From positions 1 to 34,982 of IMG/VR virus record IMGVR_UViG_3300046804_002202: a stretch of 34,982 bases of DNA; one strand, 5' to 3'. Under the pieces are notes generated by a model, which saw nothing but the letters and a program-made list of their open reading frames with translations, had not been told where the DNA came from and did no database searches. Both the position numbers and the translations under genes were made by a program. Positions within the stretch are counted from its first letter, which is position 1. Each line of letters begins with the position of its first letter. Source of the stretch: a virus. Below, in pieces: positions 5,264 through 34,839 of the stretch.

Positions 5264-5582
5264 GCATTATCTTTTAAATTTGTATGGATGTTCGTTTGTT
5301 CTTTTGGACGACGAACGTTGTCTTATTGACTTATTAGAAAACGCAGCAGTTGCTAGTGGTGCTACTGTGGTTCAGACTATCTCAAAGAAGTTTGATCCAC
5401 AGGGAGTTACTGTAATTTGTCTTTTATCTGAAAGTCATATCAGTATTCATACATGGCCTGAAGAAGGTAAAGCAGCAGTAGATGTTTATACCTGTGGAGA
5501 TTGCAATCCAAAGATTGGATGTGACATTATCATTCAACAACTTTATGCAACTAATCACACACTAAGTTATATTGAAAGATAA
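5256..5582 (+). CDS. speD: S-adenosylmethionine decarboxylase proenzyme
   Basis: This 108-residue protein is a short bacterial-type AdoMet decarboxylase. It contains the self-cleavage sequence SESHISIHTWPE, where cleavage before S60 would create the pyruvoyl cofactor. H65 and C80 in VYTCGDC match the expected processing and catalytic residues. The enzyme makes decarboxylated AdoMet, the aminopropyl donor for spermidine, and speD is a known cyanophage auxiliary gene. Its start overlaps the previous gene by eight bases. A degenerate late box (GATAAATA) spans its last codons, just before the nested repeat module that controls the next gene. Confidence 0.93.
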   Translation: MGKHYLLNLYGCSFVLLDDERCLIDLLENAAVASGATVVQTISKKFDPQGVTVICLLSESHISIHTWPEEGKAAVDVYTCGDCNPKIGCDIIIQQLYATNHTLSYIER

Positions 5583-5590
5583 ATACTAAT

Positions 5591-5674
5591 GCTTAATCGT
5601 GGTTGTTTAAGCAAAAAGATTGGGGACAGAAATGTCCCTTTTCTTGTATAAATAAGTATAACCACGATTAAAGC
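5591..5674 (+). promoter_or_regulatory. Nested module A: long inverted repeat enclosing terminator and late promoter
   Basis: The left arm GCTTAATCGTGGTT (5591-5604) pairs with the right arm AACCACGATTAAAGC (5660-5674). Eleven bases (5594-5604 with 5660-5670) match perfectly and one A bulges further out. Between the arms lie a terminator (5623-5643) and a late promoter TATAAATA (5647-5654). The expected late start, about six bases after the box, is 5660, exactly the first base of the right arm. The right arm therefore forms the 5' leader of the GIY-YIG mRNA. The left arm can also fold on itself through TTAAGC at 5607-5612. Confidence 0.75.
5623..5643 (+). terminator. Rho-independent terminator after speD
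   Basis: GGGACA/TGTCCC (5623-5628 and 5633-5638) closes a GAAA tetraloop and is followed by TTTTCTT. It is nested inside inverted-repeat module A. Confidence 0.85.
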
Positions 5675-5677
5675 AGT

Positions 5678-6124
5678 ATGAATAACTATTACACTTACGC
5701 ATATTTGCGTGAAGACGGAACACCTTATTACATAGGTAAAGGAATAAACAATCGTGCTTACAAAGGAGATTGCAAGTCGGTAAAAGTTCCACCTAAAGAT
5801 AGAATACTTTTTTTGAAAACGGATTTAACTGAAGAAGATGCTTTTAAACACGAGATTTATATGATAAGCATTTTGGGTCGTAAGGATATTAAAACGGGTA
5901 TTTTAAGAAACTTAACTGATGGTGGGGAAGGTTTTTCTTCTAAACAAATGACTATTCTTTGGGAAAGGAGAAGAAAAAGAAAGTTGGAATTAGAAATAAA
6001 AAAGTGGAGAAAAGAATATGATAAAGGTGCTATTTGGAGAGAAAAGAATAGAGAAGTTTTTGATGTGCTGATAAAAAATGTTATTAGTAATAGAACATTT
6101 ATGTATAATAATGATACCATTTAG
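5678..6124 (+). CDS. GIY-YIG free-standing endonuclease
   Basis: The 148-residue protein opens with [19 protein letters not shown] (about 4-22), a GIY-YIG nuclease core. An [13 protein letters not shown] segment carries the expected glutamate, and [11 protein letters not shown] completes the domain. The C-terminal half is lysine/arginine-rich and helical and probably binds DNA. It follows nested module A, so it is expected to be expressed late. It interrupts the early gene array between speD and the 6204 gene, as expected for a mobile free-standing endonuclease. Confidence 0.82.
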
Positions 6125-9760: not shown

Positions 9761-9783
9761 ATCATACAATTTTCTTGAATAAA

Positions 9784-10221
9784 ATGAGTTGGACCAAAGA
9801 ACAGCAGGCTGAATATATGCGTAATTATCGTAAAGATCCTGCAAAAAAGAAAAGATCTCAAGAACTTCAAAGAGAATGGTATCACAGAAATAAAGAAACT
9901 ATTTTAGTAAAACAAAAAGATTTATATTATTCTTTGAAGGAACAAATAATTGAAAATCTTGGTGGAAAATGTAAGTATTGTTCTTCCTATGAAAATTTAG
10001 AATTTAATCACATTGATCCATTACTCAAAGTTGAAGAAGCATCCAAAAGACATATGATGTCCAAAGATGAGTGGAAAAAATGTGAACTTCTCTGTAAAGA
10101 CTGTCACAGAAAGTATACTACTGCTGAAAACAAAATAATGAGAAAGTATTGGTTAGAAAATGTTGATCTCGAAACAAGGAGAAAATTAATTAATGAGCAG
10201 TTGCAAAGTGACTCCATTTGA
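9784..10221 (+). CDS. HNH free-standing endonuclease
   Basis: The 145-residue protein has a basic helical N terminus (TKEQQAEYMRNYRKDP) and a compact HNH core: C-K-Y-C near the middle, LEFNHIDP, then CELLCKDCHRKY. These include the catalytic histidine and two zinc cysteine pairs. I chose ATG 9784 rather than the TTG at 9775. The gene lies between gp33 and gp59, two core T4 genes, and overlaps the start of gp59 by 29 bases, so it looks like an insertion into an older gp33-gp59 junction. It is preceded by a late promoter. Confidence 0.78.
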   Translation: MSWTKEQQAEYMRNYRKDPAKKKRSQELQREWYHRNKETILVKQKDLYYSLKEQIIENLGGKCKYCSSYENLEFNHIDPLLKVEEASKRHMMSKDEWKKCELLCKDCHRKYTTAENKIMRKYWLENVDLETRRKLINEQLQSDSI

Positions 10222-11187: not shown

Positions 11188-11844
11188 GTGCCCGTTATTT
11201 ACGAATTTATTAATAATGTAAATCAAAAAATTTATATCGGACAAGCATCTGATTATAAACAAAGGATAAGATCTCATAAGTTCAATTTAAGTCAAAATAA
11301 AAATACTCCATTTTATAATGCTTTGAGAAAATATGGATGGAATAATTTTTCTATCAATATAGTTGAAGAGTGTGATGAAGAAAAATTAAATCAAAGAGAA
11401 ATCTATTGGATAGAAGAAAAAAAGTCGTTATATCCAAATGGATATAATTTATTAGAAGGCGGCAAACAAGCAAAACATACTGATGTTACTAAACAAAAAA
11501 TATCAGATAGTAGAAAAGGAATTAAATTTAGTAAATCTCATATTGAAAATTTAAAGAAGTCACATATTGGATATGTGATGCCAGATGAACAAAAGAAAAA
11601 AATATCACAATCAAATAAAGGAAAAATCATTTCAAAAGAAACAAAAAATAAATTAAAGTATTCTCAACCTCACAGGAAAGAAGTTGGAAGATTTGATTTA
11701 AATGGAAATCTTGTTACTAAATATGACAGCATAATGGAAGCATCTATTGATTTAAAATGTTCTCCTGGTAATATATCTGAATGCTGCAATGGAAAAAGAA
11801 AAATGAAAACTATTTTAAAAGGAGATGTTTTAAAATTTTTATGA
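11188..11844 (+). CDS. GIY-YIG homing endonuclease with NUMOD repeats
   Basis: The 218-residue protein has an N-terminal GIY-YIG domain (IYEF at 4-7, IYIG at 15-18, conserved R26, E71 in REIYWIEE, and NLLEGG). Lysine-rich NUMOD3-type repeats follow (KQKISDSRKGIKFS, KKKISQSNKGKIIS). The C-terminal NUMOD1-like module (VGRFDLNGNLVTKYDS) resembles a DNA-binding helix-turn-helix region. The start is a GTG at 11188; no ATG is close and the nuclease domain begins immediately. It lies between the DUF1825-like gene and gp32. Confidence 0.85.
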   Translation: MPVIYEFINNVNQKIYIGQASDYKQRIRSHKFNLSQNKNTPFYNALRKYGWNNFSINIVEECDEEKLNQREIYWIEEKKSLYPNGYNLLEGGKQAKHTDVTKQKISDSRKGIKFSKSHIENLKKSHIGYVMPDEQKKKISQSNKGKIISKETKNKLKYSQPHRKEVGRFDLNGNLVTKYDSIMEASIDLKCSPGNISECCNGKRKMKTILKGDVLKFL

Positions 11845-11925: not shown

Positions 11926-12867
11926 ATGTCATTCGAAAATCTTAAGAAGCAATCTAAACTTGGTTCTCTAACTTCTAAACTTGTAAAAGAAGTTGAAAAA
12001 ATGAATGCTACATCTAATAGTGTTGATGAAAGGATGTGGCGTCCCGAGATGGATAAAACAGGAAACGGTTTTGCAGTAATCCGTTTCCTGCCTGCTCCCG
12101 AAGGAGAAGATGTTCCCTGGGCAAAAATGTACTCTCATGGTTTCCAAGGTCCTGGTGGTTGGTATATTGAAAACTCTCTGACAACTCTGAGTCAGAAAGA
12201 TCCTGTATCCGAACACAATCGCAAACTGTGGAACAGTGGTAGCGATAAGGATAAAGAAACTGTTCGCAAGCAAAAGCGTAAACTGTCTTATTACAGCAAT
12301 ATCTACGTTGTAAAAGATCCTACAAATCCACAAAACGAAGGTAAGGTCTTCCTCTTCAAGTATGGTAAGAAGATCTTTGATAAGATTATGGAAGCAATGC
12401 AACCTGAGTTTGAGGATGAAACTCCTATTAATCCTTTTGACTTCTGGCAGGGTGCTAATTTCAAACTCAAAATCGTTAAGAAAGATGGGTATTGGAACTA
12501 CGACAAGTCAGAATTTGGTTCTGTTGAACCACTACTGGATGATGACGATGCTCTGGAAGCCATCTGGAAGAAAGAGTATTCTCTGGCAGCAGTAACTGCT
12601 CCTGATCAATTCAAGTCCTATGAAGAACTTGATGCACGTCTGAATGCTGTTCTTGGTCTTCAGACTCCTACTCGCTCTCGTGCTGTAGTTGAACAGGAAG
12701 ATGATCTTGAAGAGTATACACAAACTCCTACTGTTCAAGATCGTGTGGTAGAAGAACTGGAACAATCTTATGCTCGTTCCAAGTCTCCTTCACTGCCGAC
12801 TATCACTTCTTCTGATGAGGATGAAGATGATGCTCTTGCATATTTTTCTCGCCTAGCAAATGACTAA
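11926..12867 (+). CDS. 32: Single-stranded DNA-binding protein gp32
   Basis: The 313-residue protein follows T4 gp32 in layout. The basic N terminus (SFENLKKQSKLGSLTSKLVKEVEK) is for cooperativity. The core contains GWYIEN and KRKLSYYSNIYVVKDPTNPQNEGKV-like blocks that bind DNA. The acidic C-terminal tail (SSDEDEDDALAYFSRLAND) recruits replication proteins. The zinc cysteines and the CPVC motif of T4 gp32 are absent; the protein has no cysteine at all. It coats single-stranded DNA in replication and recombination, matching the gp59 gene nearby. A strong Shine-Dalgarno-like AAAGG lies upstream. The 3' end is followed by nested module B. Confidence 0.95.
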   Translation: MSFENLKKQSKLGSLTSKLVKEVEKMNATSNSVDERMWRPEMDKTGNGFAVIRFLPAPEGEDVPWAKMYSHGFQGPGGWYIENSLTTLSQKDPVSEHNRKLWNSGSDKDKETVRKQKRKLSYYSNIYVVKDPTNPQNEGKVFLFKYGKKIFDKIMEAMQPEFEDETPINPFDFWQGANFKLKIVKKDGYWNYDKSEFGSVEPLLDDDDALEAIWKKEYSLAAVTAPDQFKSYEELDARLNAVLGLQTPTRSRAVVEQEDDLEEYTQTPTVQDRVVEELEQSYARSKSPSLPTITSSDEDEDDALAYFSRLAND

Positions 12868-12877
12868 ATAACTAAAC

Positions 12878-12953
12878 CTATAAGGTCGCACTTAAGGTGG
12901 AAAGGGTGTCTTCGGGCACCTTTTCTTGTATAAATAGTATTGCGACTTTATAG
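12878..12953 (+). promoter_or_regulatory. Nested module B: inverted repeat enclosing terminator and late promoter
   Basis: The left arm CTATAAGGTCGCA (12878-12890) pairs with TGCGACTTTATAG (12941-12953) over 13 positions with a single G-U pair. Inside are a terminator (12902-12924) and a perfect TATAAATA (12929-12936). The expected late start near 12942 coincides with the start of the right arm. An ACTAAATA (12863-12870) also precedes the left arm by eight bases. The leader ends TAGAGTAGAACTATG, shared exactly with module C. Confidence 0.78.
12902..12924 (+). terminator. Rho-independent terminator after gp32
   Basis: GGTGTC/GGCACC (12905-12910 and 12915-12920, one G-U pair) closes a TTCG tetraloop; flanking AAG and TTTT extend the stem and provide the T tract. 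It is nested in module B. Confidence 0.85.
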
Positions 12954-12962
12954 AGTAGAACT

Positions 12963-13580
12963 ATGGAAACTCCAAGAGAGTATTACTATACCTATTATTC
13001 CTATGAGGAATACGGTAAAGGATATTTTGGTTCAAGAACTTGTGAATGTTTACCTGAAGAAGACATAAAATATTTTGGTTCATTTAAAGACAAACAATTT
13101 AAACCAACACAAAAGATAATACTTAAAGATGATTATTCTACAAGAGAGGAAGCATATGCTGATGAGATTATTTTACAAGAGCACTATAAAGTAGTAGAAA
13201 ATCCTCACTTTGCAAACAGAGCATATCAAACTTCTACTGGATTTAGTAGAAAAGGTATGGTTCCTCATAATAAAGGACATAAAATGTCTTTAGAGCAAAG
13301 AAAAAAGTTGAGCGATATTTGTAAAGGAAGAAAAGTAAATGAAGAAACTAAACAAAAAATAAGCAAATCTACTAAGGGAAGAGTATTAACTGAAGAGCAT
13401 AAAAGAAAAATAGCAGAAGCAAATAAAGGAAAGTCAAGGCAAACTAAAGAAGGTTTGGAAAGATTTAAAAATATCCAAAAAGAAAGAAAAGGAAAACCTG
13501 GAAAAAAACACTCAGAAGAAACTAAAAAGAAAATAAGCGAAGCGACAAAAGGAAGAATTCCTTGGAATAAAAAAGTTTAG
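12963..13580 (+). CDS. GIY-YIG-like endonuclease with NUMOD3 repeats
   Basis: The 205-residue protein has an N-terminal region YYYTYYSYEEYGKGYFGSR (about 7-25) resembling a divergent GIY-YIG core, followed by YFGSF and an EEAYADEIILQ segment that could carry the catalytic glutamate. From about residue 95 on it is made of NUMOD3-type DNA-binding repeats (KGHKMSLEQRKKLSDICKG, EETKQKISKSTKGR, EEHKRKIAEANKGK, EETKKKISEATKGR). It follows nested module B. Its stop overlaps the end of the convergent gp53 gene by four bases, so it sits exactly at the gp32-gp53 junction. Confidence 0.75.
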   Translation: METPREYYYTYYSYEEYGKGYFGSRTCECLPEEDIKYFGSFKDKQFKPTQKIILKDDYSTREEAYADEIILQEHYKVVENPHFANRAYQTSTGFSRKGMVPHNKGHKMSLEQRKKLSDICKGRKVNEETKQKISKSTKGRVLTEEHKRKIAEANKGKSRQTKEGLERFKNIQKERKGKPGKKHSEETKKKISEATKGRIPWNKKV

Positions 13581-17647: not shown

Positions 17648-18367
17648 ATGCCTTTACCAAAGATCTCTACGCCAACACATGAGTTGGAACTACCTTCTAC
17701 TGGACAGACGATTCAGTATCGCCCTTTTCTTGTGCGAGAAGAAAAACTTCTTGTATTAGCACTTGAAAGTGAGAACACAAAAGAAATTACAACAGCAATT
17801 AAGAACGTCATTAAAAATTGTATCCAAACAAAAGGAGTAAAGGTAGAGTCACTACCTACCTTTGATATTGAATATCTCTTCCTTAATATTCGTGGTAAAT
17901 CTGTTGGAGAAGAAATTGAAGTTAATATTGTTTGTCCAGATGATGGAGAAACTTATGTTCCAGTGAAGATTGATATTGATGAAATTAAAGTACAAAAAAA
18001 CGAAGAGCATACGACTAAAATTCAAGTAGATCCTTCCATCGTAATGGAAATGAAGTATCCATCATTGGATCAATTCATTAAAAATAACTTTGACTTTAAT
18101 GAAAACAATTCAATGGATCAGTCATTTGATTTGGTTGCTTCTTGTGTAGATAAGATTTATACTGAAGAAGAAGTTTGGTCTGCTGCTGATGTAACTAAAA
18201 AAGAACTGATTGACTTTTTGGAGCAAATGAATTCCTCACAATTCAAACAGATTGAAAAGTTCTTTGAGACAATGCCTAAACTTTCTCATACGGTTAAAGT
18301 CAAGAACCCAAATACTGAAGTTGAAAGTGAAGTTGTATTGGAGGGACTATCCAGTTTTTTCGCATAG
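17648..18367 (+). CDS. 26: Baseplate hub/tail assembly protein gp26
   Basis: The 239-residue protein begins MPLPKISTPTHELELPSTGQ and continues QYRPFLVREEKLLVLALESEN, the opening of gp26 proteins in T4-like phages. A small zinc-like pair (C98 region VCPDDGE) and a helical C-terminal half (FLEQMNSSQFKQIEKFFETMPKL) follow. In T4, gp26 is needed for hub assembly. The family is thought to act with gp51 as the tail-assembly chaperone pair for the tape-measure protein. The gene ends at a T_TTT_TTC sequence just before its TAG stop, in the right frame for -1 frameshifting into the next ORF. Confidence 0.85.
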   Translation: MPLPKISTPTHELELPSTGQTIQYRPFLVREEKLLVLALESENTKEITTAIKNVIKNCIQTKGVKVESLPTFDIEYLFLNIRGKSVGEEIEVNIVCPDDGETYVPVKIDIDEIKVQKNEEHTTKIQVDPSIVMEMKYPSLDQFIKNNFDFNENNSMDQSFDLVASCVDKIYTEEEVWSAADVTKKELIDFLEQMNSSQFKQIEKFFETMPKLSHTVKVKNPNTEVESEVVLEGLSSFFA

Positions 18368-32209: not shown

Positions 32210-32245
32210 GAAGACATAAGTATAAATAAACGTAGTTATGTTTTC
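32210..32245 (+). promoter_or_regulatory. Late promoter inside a hairpin that covers the start codon
   Basis: GAAGACATAAGTA (32210-32222) pairs with TAGTTATGTTTTC (32233-32245) over 13 positions with one mismatch and one G-U pair. The 3' arm contains the ATG at 32238. TATAAATA (32221-32228) spans the end of the left arm and the loop, and an expected start near 32234 excludes the left arm. RNA reading through from the tRNA would hide the start codon, while late RNA would not. Confidence 0.65.
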
Positions 32246-32717
32246 TAAAATGTTGAGAAACGGATACAAATCTTCTGATGTCGAATTTATTGATGCAGTA
32301 AAAACATCTAATTCTATTAGAGAAGTACTGATTAAATTAAATCTAAAGGCAGCAGGAGGAAATTATCAATGTTTTCATAAAAGAGTAAAAGAACTGAATA
32401 TTTCTATAGATCACTTCACTGATCCTAAAGTATGGAACAAAGGTAAAAAATTTGGACCAAAAAGATCATTAGAACATTATTTAAATGGTGTTCCCATTCA
32501 GTCTCACAAACTCAAATTAAGACTTATTAGTGAAGGTATAAAAGAGCATAAATGCGAAGAATGTGGAATCAATGAATGGAGAGGGCAACCTACTCCAATT
32601 GAATTAGACCACATAAATGGTAATCATCACGATAATCGTTTAGAAAACCTTCGCCTCTTATGTCCAAACTGCCACGCGCAGACAGAAACATATAGAGGTA
32701 AAAATAAGAAATCTTAA
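32238..32717 (+). CDS. HNH free-standing endonuclease
   Basis: The 159-residue protein has an N-terminal helical region with a possible helix-turn-helix (SNSIREVLIKLNLKAAGGN). A C-terminal HNH domain follows: C106xxC109, IELDHINGNHHDNRLENLR (D124, H125), and LCPNCHAQTETY (C142, C145, H146). The domain is clearly related to that of the 33200 gene. A late start at about 32234 would leave almost no leader for ATG 32238; ATG 32250 is an alternative start. It lies 31 bases after tRNA-Leu. Confidence 0.82.
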   Translation: MFSKMLRNGYKSSDVEFIDAVKTSNSIREVLIKLNLKAAGGNYQCFHKRVKELNISIDHFTDPKVWNKGKKFGPKRSLEHYLNGVPIQSHKLKLRLISEGIKEHKCEECGINEWRGQPTPIELDHINGNHHDNRLENLRLLCPNCHAQTETYRGKNKKS

Positions 32718-33027: not shown

Positions 33028-33100
33028 TGCCGAATTAGTTCAGTGATAGAACGCCATACTTGTAATATGGATGTCATCGGTTTGATCCCGGTATTCGGCT
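33028..33100 (+). tRNA. tRNA-Thr (anticodon UGU)
   Basis: The 73-base gene has a perfect acceptor stem GCCGAAT/ATTCGGC and a D stem GTTC/GAAC. The anticodon stem is CCATA/TATGG with loop CTTGTAA (anticodon TGT). The T stem is ATCGG/CCGGT with loop TTTGATC. CCA is not encoded; the base after the acceptor stem is T. It begins two bases after the preceding stop codon. Confidence 0.93.
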
Positions 33101-33117
33101 TAACTAAATAATAGTAC

Positions 33118-33190
33118 CTGAATGACGGCAATCTTCAGGGGAGGGTGAAAGACCCTCCTTTTTAATATAAATAATAGTGCCGTCATTTAG
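33118..33190 (+). promoter_or_regulatory. Nested module C: inverted repeat enclosing terminator and late promoter
   Basis: The left arm CTGAATGACGGCA (33118-33130) pairs with TGCCGTCATTTAG (33178-33190) over 13 positions with one G-U pair at the same relative position as in module B. Between them are a terminator (33140-33163) and TATAAATA (33166-33173). The expected late start near 33179 coincides with the right arm. ACTAAATA (33103-33110) precedes the left arm. The 15 bases TAGAGTAGAACTATG (33188-33202) are identical to those in module B. Confidence 0.78.
33140..33163 (+). terminator. Rho-independent terminator after tRNA-Thr
   Basis: GGAGGGT/ACCCTCC (33140-33146 and 33152-33158) closes a GAAAG loop, followed by TTTTT to 33163. 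It is nested in module C. Confidence 0.9.
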
Positions 33191-33199
33191 AGTAGAACT

Positions 33200-33817
33200 A
33201 TGCCAAATTGGTCACAGGAAGGATTTCAGCGTATAATTGATGCTGGAAAAAGAAGTGCTTTGATTTCCAAAGAAAGGTCTAAAAAACTTCAAGAAGAGTA
33301 TTATAAAAATCCAAAATTGTGTTTAAATTGCAAAACTATAATATCTTATGAGAAAAAATTATCTAACAAATATTGTTGTCGTTCTTGTTCAATACAAGTA
33401 AATAATAGAAAAAGAACAAAATCAGTTGAGAAGAATTGCCTTCACTGCAATAACATATTAGGAAAATCTGCAATTAAATTTTGTTCTAATAAATGCCAAA
33501 GAGAATATGAATATTCTCAAAGAGTTTCTATGTGGGTAAATGGGAATTATTCCATAAAATCAAGAGATTTTTTTAGAAGATACCTAACAGAAACACAAGG
33601 ATATAAGTGCTCTTGTTGTAATATAAGTGAATGGAATGGAAAATTAATTGTTTTAGAAATAGACCATATAGATGGAAACTCTGATAATAATAGACCAGAA
33701 AACTTAAGGTTTATCTGCCCAAATTGCCATTCACAAACTGATACATACAAAGCAAGAAATATGGGCAAAGGAAGACATTATAGGAGAGAACGATATGCTG
33801 CTGGACAAAGTTACTAA
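33200..33817 (+). CDS. HNH free-standing endonuclease with zinc fingers
   Basis: The 205-residue protein has two N-terminal CxxC...Cxx(x)C zinc-ribbon-like units (C41/C44 with C59/C63, and C80/C83 with C95/C99). A C-terminal HNH domain follows: YKCSCCNIS (C137, C140), LEIDHIDGNSDNNRPENLR (D155, H156) and ICPNCHSQTDTY (C173, C176, H177). The HNH domain is closely related to that of the 32238 gene. It follows tRNA-Thr and module C, so it is probably expressed late. Confidence 0.85.
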   Translation: MPNWSQEGFQRIIDAGKRSALISKERSKKLQEEYYKNPKLCLNCKTIISYEKKLSNKYCCRSCSIQVNNRKRTKSVEKNCLHCNNILGKSAIKFCSNKCQREYEYSQRVSMWVNGNYSIKSRDFFRRYLTETQGYKCSCCNISEWNGKLIVLEIDHIDGNSDNNRPENLRFICPNCHSQTDTYKARNMGKGRHYRRERYAAGQSY

Positions 33818-34185: not shown

Positions 34186-34839
34186 ATGAAAAGTGAGTAT
34201 TTTATAGATAAGGTAGGTAAAGAAGAAATCAAAGATCTTCTTTATACCTATCATTATCTTAAAGACGAATCAAAGGATTTTAAAAGTGGATATAACTACT
34301 CACTTTACCGCAACTCATTCACAGATATCCTTAATATTGGCGGGTGTCTTGGTGCTTGCATTTTTACTAATATCCCAGTTCCAGAAATCGCAGTAGGTGC
34401 ATTTGGTTTAGAAAGAAACCAGCAAGAAGGAATATACGAATTATCAAGACTTTGTATACATCCAGATATTCAAAAAGAAGAGTATAATATCACATCTTGG
34501 TTCGTCAGTCGTTGCATAAGGAGATTTAGAAAAGATGCCCGCGTTCGTGCTATTCTTAGTTACGCTGACAATAATCACCACACTGGAATTATATACAGAG
34601 CTTGCAATTTTCAATACTATGGTTTGACTGATAAGAAATGTGATTTTTGGATTAAACAATCTGATGGATCATTCATCAAACACTCAAGAGGTCCTATCAA
34701 AGGATTGGAAGGAGAATGGAGAGAAAGAAGTAGAAAGCATAGATACTTAATGATCTTTGATAAGGAACTGAAGAAAAAGTTGACATGGAAAGAAGAGAAG
34801 TGGTATAATAAACAAGACGATACTGAATCGTTACAGTGA
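34186..34839 (+). CDS. Mom-like GNAT-fold DNA modification protein
   Basis: The 217-residue protein has the pattern of phage Mu Mom and its relatives: YHYLKD near the N terminus, GGCLGACIFTNIPVPE, YELSRLCIHPD (84-94), SWFVSRCIR (104-112), and SYADNNHHTGIIYRACNFQYYG (about 125-146). Mom modifies adenine in phage DNA (carbamoylmethylation) and protects it from restriction enzymes, using a GNAT-like fold and metal. Here it could protect phage DNA from host restriction. The protein is followed by module D. The family match is by eye. Confidence 0.72.
   Translation: MKSEYFIDKVGKEEIKDLLYTYHYLKDESKDFKSGYNYSLYRNSFTDILNIGGCLGACIFTNIPVPEIAVGAFGLERNQQEGIYELSRLCIHPDIQKEEYNITSWFVSRCIRRFRKDARVRAILSYADNNHHTGIIYRACNFQYYGLTDKKCDFWIKQSDGSFIKHSRGPIKGLEGEWRERSRKHRYLMIFDKELKKKLTWKEEKWYNKQDDTESLQ

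Follow-up and report, generated by a model that had tools for sequence, protein, structure and literature searches.

A conserved RNA-level cassette in front of mobile nuclease genes of cyanophages, with a predicted antisense small RNA

We use comparative sequence analysis to study a module of about 95 nt that stands before mobile nuclease genes in cyanophages. The copy at the centre of this work, module C, is one member of a large family, previously unreported as far as we could find, and the viruses that bear it have freshwater and brackish cyanobacteria as their hosts. Judged from sequence, the family is almost certainly a conserved cassette of mobile nuclease genes that is maintained at the level of RNA. 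Its parts, their spacing, the covariation of the two helices at the level of RNA and the variety of genes downstream are supported by the sequences themselves, while the activity of the upstream promoter (P1) and the existence of a small RNA (sRNA) made from it are what we infer. The explanation that accounts best for the whole, and that we consider rather probable, is a two-promoter cassette in which a tandem antisense sRNA would repress the mRNA of the nuclease.

The window (the whole stretch of DNA analysed, 34,982 bases) is a piece of a T4-like cyanophage whose PhoH is closest to the PhoH of Synechococcus and Prochlorococcus phages; at 34186-34839 this cyanophage also encodes a Mom-family protein of the DNA-modification type (PF25680, E=2.1e-19). 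Three modules, A (5580-5680), B (12865-12965) and C, have an identical order of parts and differing arms (Table 1). Module C lies between a tRNA-Thr gene (33029-33100) and the HNH gene, and because the tRNA precedes it, its TAAATA is not the stop codon of an upstream gene. Arm 1, CTGAATGACGGCA, and arm 2, TGCCGTCATTTAG, form a stem of 13 positions that includes one G-U; the terminator hairpin and the downstream late promoter TATAAATA (P2) sit between the two, and five bases separate the TAAATA of P1 from the hairpin, as they do TATAAATA from the arm-2 region. The initial annotation had recognized this 13-position stem and its single G-U, but had placed the G-U at the same point as in module B; with positions numbered from arm 1's outer end, it falls at position 7 in B (G12884.U12947) and at position 3 in C (G33120.U33188). 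Its claim that B and C have the same order of parts is borne out, with module A matching as well, and the 15-base leader TAGAGTAGAACTATG that it found identical in both occurs exactly twice in the window, once in each. Missing from it were the upstream TAAATA, present in all three modules five bases before the arm-1 hairpin, and the extension of the pairing to 14 bp with one bulge.

Table 1. Positions of modules A, B and C in the window and of the genes behind them.
Feature	Position	Strand	Basis or remark
Module A, upstream TAAATA	5580-5585	+	motif
Module A, predicted sRNA unit; hairpin GCTTAA/TTAAGC	5591-5646	+	arm 1 at 5593-5606
Module A, TATAAATA, arm 2 (5658-5671), different leader (AAAGCAGT ATG)	5647-5680	+	motif
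GIY-YIG-like gene behind module A	5678-6124	+	N-terminus by eye; PHROG matches all of unknown function
Module B, upstream TAAATA	12865-12870	+	motif
Module B, predicted sRNA unit	12876-12928	+	arm 1 CTATAAGGTCGCA at 12878-12890
Module B, TATAAATA, arm 2 (12941-12953), leader (12951-12965)	12929-12965	+	motif, pairing
NUMOD3, GIY-YIG-like homing endonuclease gene behind module B	12963-13580	+	NUMOD3 E=1.4e-15; homing endonuclease PHROG_314 E=1.2e-19
Module C, upstream late-promoter-like motif P1, TAAATA	33105-33110	+	octamer ACTAAATA = 33103-33110
Module C, predicted sRNA: +1 = A33116, hairpin, terminator, T-run	33116-33163	+	inferred from promoter spacing and terminator
Module C, hairpin CCTGAA/TTCAGG around arm 1	33117-33139	+	fold; compensatory changes in alignment
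Module C, arm 1 CTGAATGACGGCA	33118-33130	+	arm pairing; covariation
Module C, intrinsic terminator GGAGGG TGAAAGA CCCTCC TTTTT	33140-33163	+	sequence and fold
Module C, downstream late promoter P2 TATAAATA	33166-33173	+	motif
Module C, arm 2 TGCCGTCATTTAG	33178-33190	+	predicted mRNA +1 = G33179
Module C, 15-base leader TAGAGTAGAACTATG	33188-33202	+	shares last 3 bases of arm 2
HNH endonuclease gene behind module C	33200-33817	+	HNH_3 E=3.3e-6; HNH PHROGs to 6e-29

Across the family, a copy reads TAAATA, five bases, the arm-1 hairpin, an intrinsic terminator, TATAAATA, five bases, arm 2 and ATG. Arm 1 occupies the 5' strand and loop of its hairpin and is antisense to the predicted 5' end of the mRNA, which is arm 2; the ATG lies 16-25 nt downstream in 275 of 276 modules. 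We count at least 276 modules from at least 229 loci, and all family counts are lower bounds. A search of 2.9 million viral contigs for the exact 15-base leader returned 60 stretches. In 51 of them TATAAATA precedes the leader, a 52nd (L175) has CATAAATA and a full module, and the remaining eight lie in unrelated DNA that shows no structure of this kind. With 52 of 60 leader-bearing stretches being modules, the possibility that the leader is a generic late leader with no link to the inverted repeat is rejected. The converse fails: most modules, among those listed, have other leaders.

How far does the pairing of the arms exceed what unrelated sequences would give? The cleanest set for this question is leader-selected and holds 54 copies (52 from viral contigs and two from the window), chosen on the leader and TATAAATA and not on pairing. 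In every one of them the upstream stretch can form a duplex of -17.6 kcal/mol or lower with the 5' end of the mRNA. In 49 there are 8 or more consecutive Watson-Crick pairs, and the other five have runs of 6; one of these is the module B type, where a G-U splits the run. Runs of 8 or more are found in 1.7% of 2,668 cross pairs between copies with different 5' ends and in 1.1% of 1,080 shuffled 5' ends. The same picture holds for 224 distinct promoter pairs (no pairing test entered their selection, the loci being found mostly by hairpin patterns), where 87.9% reach a run of 8 as against 5.0% of cross pairs and 1.1% of shuffles. When the hairpin/promoter pattern was run against 257 billion bases of cellular genomes, it gave 24 matches, of which two were paired over at least 8 bases, compared to 97 of 112 viral loci. 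In a set of 210 distinct modules that was itself selected for pairing, the arm-1 core lies inside the hairpin in 207, and the partner of arm 1 begins between -3 and +1 of the mRNA +1 in 208; in A, B and C the duplex spans the predicted mRNA +1 to the predicted sRNA +1. Many copies are closely related, as chance or plain common descent of one functionless sequence would have it, yet this explanation retains next to no probability in the face of 15 distinct arms within the one leader class, 101 distinct arm cores in all, the cellular control and the covariation tests, which refute it.

For covariation we align 37 modules, namely the three of the window and 34 picked for standard register, pairing and different arms, so that the percentage of pairing in this alignment is no fair rate. 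In the arms, 12 of 13 pairs are changed on both sides, and the covariation score is 0.694, against 0.212 for shuffled and at most 0.129 for slid arms. The upstream hairpin covaries more weakly, with four of six pairs changed on both sides and a score of 0.292 against 0.157. The mismatches that the arms tolerate also tell which molecule is under selection. Internal positions of the arm helix that depart from Watson-Crick pairing are G.U in 83 cases and A.C in one. A DNA inverted repeat is expected to show the two equally, because each is the other when read on the opposite strand, and therefore the imbalance indicates selection on the coding-strand RNA. This bears directly on the idea that the arms are a DNA-level operator, an inverted repeat bound by protein. 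Autorepression of homing endonucleases is known, with I-TevI binding an operator over its late promoter (PMC2988022), and here too the promoter is flanked by arms. There is no reason, however, why a DNA palindrome should accept just the one mismatch that can pair in the RNA of a single strand, and the arms differ among near-identical genes while being common to unrelated ones; we regard an operator as very improbable.

We now consider the upstream part of the module. In the leader-selected set, TAAATA is found in all 53 modules that have upstream sequence, and in 50 of these it stands exactly 5 nt from the hairpin. The motif has 28 distinct upstream contexts, and in only eight of them does its TAA terminate a long frame. 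The late promoter of cyanophages is given as NATAAATA in PMC2984593, and the upstream TAAATA fits it. At -1, P1 (NATAAATA/NCTAAATA) and P2 both have T, and at +1 both have a purine; the first two bases of P1 are less conserved than those of P2. For loci found by the hairpin pattern, the query already contained TAAATA and the purine, which partly conditions the P1 logo and leaves the leader-selected set alone independent. The hairpin takes up bases of arm 1, so that it and the complete arm duplex are mutually exclusive. That such a competing structure is conserved suggests an RNA whose 3' end is at the terminator, before arm 2. Promoter and terminator motifs that would belong to the antisense RNA are present at fixed spacing, and it is likely, in our view, that the upstream unit gives rise to an sRNA of its own. 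A free-standing sRNA unit was seen in none of 257 units, in loci chosen mostly by patterns that require the second promoter. The initial annotation had called the module a late-expression unit, a description that is probably too narrow, since the second promoter, the second hairpin and the terminator point to a separate antisense RNA.

In the mechanism that we propose, the late promoter P1 would give a short RNA of about 50-60 nt, with the hairpin first and the intrinsic terminator last, and P2 would give the nuclease mRNA, whose first 14-15 nt are complementary to the 5' strand and loop of the hairpin. The loop of the sRNA would contact the 5' end of the mRNA, the hairpin would then open, and the resulting duplex of 14 bp, which begins at the 5' end of the mRNA and reaches its ribosome-binding region, would block translation. 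With separate promoters the sRNA would be able to act in trans. The outcome would be a nuclease made late and in limited amounts, from a cassette that moves between unrelated mobile nuclease genes. The identical pairing is possible within a read-through mRNA, so that pairing alone is no proof of action in trans; from the anatomy of the cassette we nonetheless lean towards repression of the nuclease mRNA in trans.

The same duplex could also have the opposite effect, with the sRNA protecting or activating the mRNA by pairing with its 5' end, for example by shielding it from decay. The duplex does start exactly at the predicted mRNA 5' end, which speaks for such a role; it also reaches into the GAG/AG-rich stretch before the ATG (+12 to +15), where it should hinder ribosomes, and this makes protection improbable.

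The main rival to the antisense sRNA is cis control of the T4 type. Here arm 1 would serve only to pair with arm 2 and mask the start in early read-through RNA, late transcripts from P2 would lack arm 1 and be translated, and the terminator would be an additional block. Such control is known for I-TevI, I-TevII, I-TevIII, segB, Aeh1 mobE and T4 e and soc (PMC3014915 and PMC2988022), and the late promoter lies between the arms of the cassette just as it does in the known T4 cases. Folding agrees with it in part: the mRNA's first 12 nt are predicted to be completely paired in the read-through RNA of B and C, with an unpaired value of 0.08 in A, while for nucleotides -14 to +3 the predicted unpaired probability goes from 0.64 to 0.09 in A, from 0.35 to 0.21 in B and from 0.61 to 0.44 in C (modest). 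The arm duplex stops just upstream of, or at, the SD-like stretch. On the other hand, T4-type control has no need for P1 or its exact spacing from the hairpin, for a hairpin that covaries and excludes the arm duplex, or for a terminator that stops read-through. We therefore judge this account possible but unlikely, and it may coexist with the sRNA.

The cassette could in addition be a copy-number sensor and incompatibility system for mobile nucleases, a tentative reading to which we give a low probability. Pairing would follow the product of the two RNA concentrations, so the nuclease would be on in coinfected cells where few genomes have its gene and homing pays, and off once most genomes carry the gene. 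The resident sRNA would also silence incoming nucleases of the same arm, and the more than 100 arm sequences would be incompatibility types, much as the loops are in plasmid antisense RNAs. Several TnpB copies, each with its own arm, could then share a contig, as in 3300042560_001323. In a cross-pairing test of insulation between arms, non-self arms pair in 6.7% of 252 combinations within a genome and in 7.8% of 15,498 between genomes (permutation P=0.36). The test gives no sign of selection for arm insulation within genomes, a weak result because identical 5' ends were merged per contig, hiding two copies of one arm (L053).

The genes behind the modules are of several kinds. They encode 197 distinct complete proteins in six blastp groups, and every group has at least one nuclease-family match (57 representatives of the 197 were scanned for families). 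The groups comprise a large one with GIY-YIG, NUMOD3 and HNH members, joined partly by NUMOD3 repeats and including some members that match no family themselves; the HNH family to which module C's gene belongs; TnpB (OrfB_IS605, Cas12f1-like TNB); an HNH protein (PHROG E=5e-23); a probable PD-(D/E)XK group with a weak match (E=0.006); and a group with an endonuclease VII match (E=8e-5). For several subgroups 'GIY-YIG' is a motif read by eye. Excluded from the grouping were 30 of the 276 modules with ORFs shorter than 100 aa, at contig ends or in broken genes (L115, L157 and L181, for example); the 2-aa ORF of L136 is a wrong start, and a 300-aa GIY-YIG-like ORF begins 5 nt later. Modules stand before nuclease genes broken by an early stop or a frameshift at L115, L148, L164, L157 and L181. 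That they are kept there suggests that the gene decays before the cassette. Two genes behind modules, MN695335 gp45 and NC_070963 gp114, are annotated 'translation initiation factor 2', and the start of B23 gp45 resembles a GIY-YIG endonuclease.

Within the window, the unlike nuclease families that the initial annotation had seen behind B and C are confirmed, with NUMOD3 and a homing-endonuclease PHROG in the one (its GIY-YIG label is the N-terminus read by eye) and HNH_3 in the other; the gene behind module A has no match in Pfam. Portability, which had been proposed from this pair, finds support in the family at large. Of 90 distinct 11-nt mRNA 5' ends, 23 precede at least two protein groups, non-homologous ones such as GIY-YIG and HNH among them, in a count that covers 254 ORFs of at least 60 aa with groups assigned by N-terminal motifs, and the module stands before TnpB genes too (L116:3958-5151, L132:5195 as a reverse-strand coordinate, L279-L291, L296 and L297). 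A direct exchange between B and C does not follow: promoter, layout and leader are common to them, arms and terminator are not. Nor is the module a fixed companion of its genes. Relatives of one TnpB have it in 13 of 22 loci, those without it being two that lack upstream sequence, one fragment, three about 53% identical and three at most 37% identical; contig 3300042560_001323 has five TnpB loci, one a partial match, and four carry a module with differing arms. Among HNH relatives of module C's gene, three of five have the module and two have plain TATAAATA. The window itself contains nuclease genes without a module at 163-606 (endonuclease VII type), 9775-10221 (HNH), 11188-11844 (GIY-YIG) and 32238-32717 (HNH), two of which follow plain TATAAATA, so the module is not obligatory.

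Two named genomes carry the module, S-SRM01 (six typical copies and a variant) and B23 (three, two of which came from a looser scan). Both are cyanophages, about 240 kb in size, and bear the annotation Kyanoviridae. The upstream TAAATA motifs of the six typical S-SRM01 copies lie at record positions 17955, 48435, 51249, 55961, 62408 and 192423. A nucleotide search for the module in named phages found only these two. With the strict promoter pair, nine other cyanophages and T4 gave no module, a provisional result as the looser scan covered other genomes; one pattern match in S-SCSM1 and two in T4 are not module-like by eye. When 20 large viral contigs, chosen for carrying modules, were searched whole, 19 had at least one promoter-pair match, and a contig of 136 kb (G009) had 11, with one module counted twice and one match chance-like by eye. 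Loci with modules also hold a group I intron match (L137:53-242) and a PhotoRC-II RNA match (L023:5802-5893). In the variant architecture of S-SRM01 (NC_070963, 77561-77650), the antisense loop sits within one long terminator-like hairpin, and its complementarity to the start region of a GIY-YIG-like gene extends as far as the ATG (-28.1 kcal/mol). That this logic recurs in another layout speaks for antisense control, although the single case could also act in cis.

We find no earlier description of such a cassette. At gathering score, Rfam finds only two tRNAs in the window and no family for the module, C4 included; in 15 further loci it finds only PhotoRC-II, elsewhere in L023. A relaxed scan of module C gives nothing near any cut-off. 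A relaxed full-length match to freshwater-1 reached 11 bits (cut-off 72) and was dropped after a follow-up in which none of six records matched and control genomes were equally silent. Full-text searches of an open-access collection, with subscription journals mostly outside it, brought up no paper on such a cassette, and the main text of the S-SRM01 genome paper contains neither 'promoter' nor 'small RNA'.

Several known systems resemble it in part. C4 antisense RNA of phages P1 and P7 lies just upstream of its target on the same strand, masks the start site through short complementary segments and is processed from the target's own transcript. The cassette is like C4 in its same-strand upstream position and its complementarity to the start site and differs in having promoter and terminator motifs of its own. 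In IS10, pairing proceeds from the loop of a hairpin RNA to the 5' end of the mRNA, and the hairpin loop of the cassette is likewise complementary to the mRNA 5' end. The IS10 RNA-OUT/RNA-IN pair also shares with the proposed sRNA a hairpin RNA, of about 69 nt, that blocks the translation start of its own element's enzyme in trans (PMC5006887). RNA-OUT is transcribed from the strand opposite its target, with which it overlaps, whereas the predicted sRNA of the cassette lies upstream on the same strand, so that complementarity is kept by compensatory changes. The T4-type late hairpins (I-TevI, segB, Aeh1 mobE) have TATAAATA between arms that pair in longer transcripts, a 5' arm upstream of the late promoter that pairs with the leader, and a mobile nuclease behind; the cassette differs by the terminator between the arms, the second late promoter in front, the second hairpin around arm 1 and its position before unrelated nucleases. 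CfrI antisense RNA of cyanophage S-PM2 is likewise associated with the gene of a homing endonuclease, but it is about 225 nt long, lies on the strand opposite to the gene and psbA, and is known from one locus.

How free-standing homing endonucleases are restrained from harming their own phage is mostly unknown. A T4 review leaves the translational control of most of them open (PMC2988022), and according to a 2010 review T4 had as yet no functionally characterised small trans-acting RNA (PMC3014915). If our reading is true, a portable sRNA cassette would be a common answer for GIY-YIG, HNH, probably PD-(D/E)XK, and TnpB nucleases. The family offers more than 100 natural sRNA/target pairs, and S-SRM01, a cultured phage with six typical copies, makes them accessible to experiment. 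Antisense control would thereby be extended from transposases to homing nucleases, as a novel way in which selfish DNA-cutting genes are tamed.
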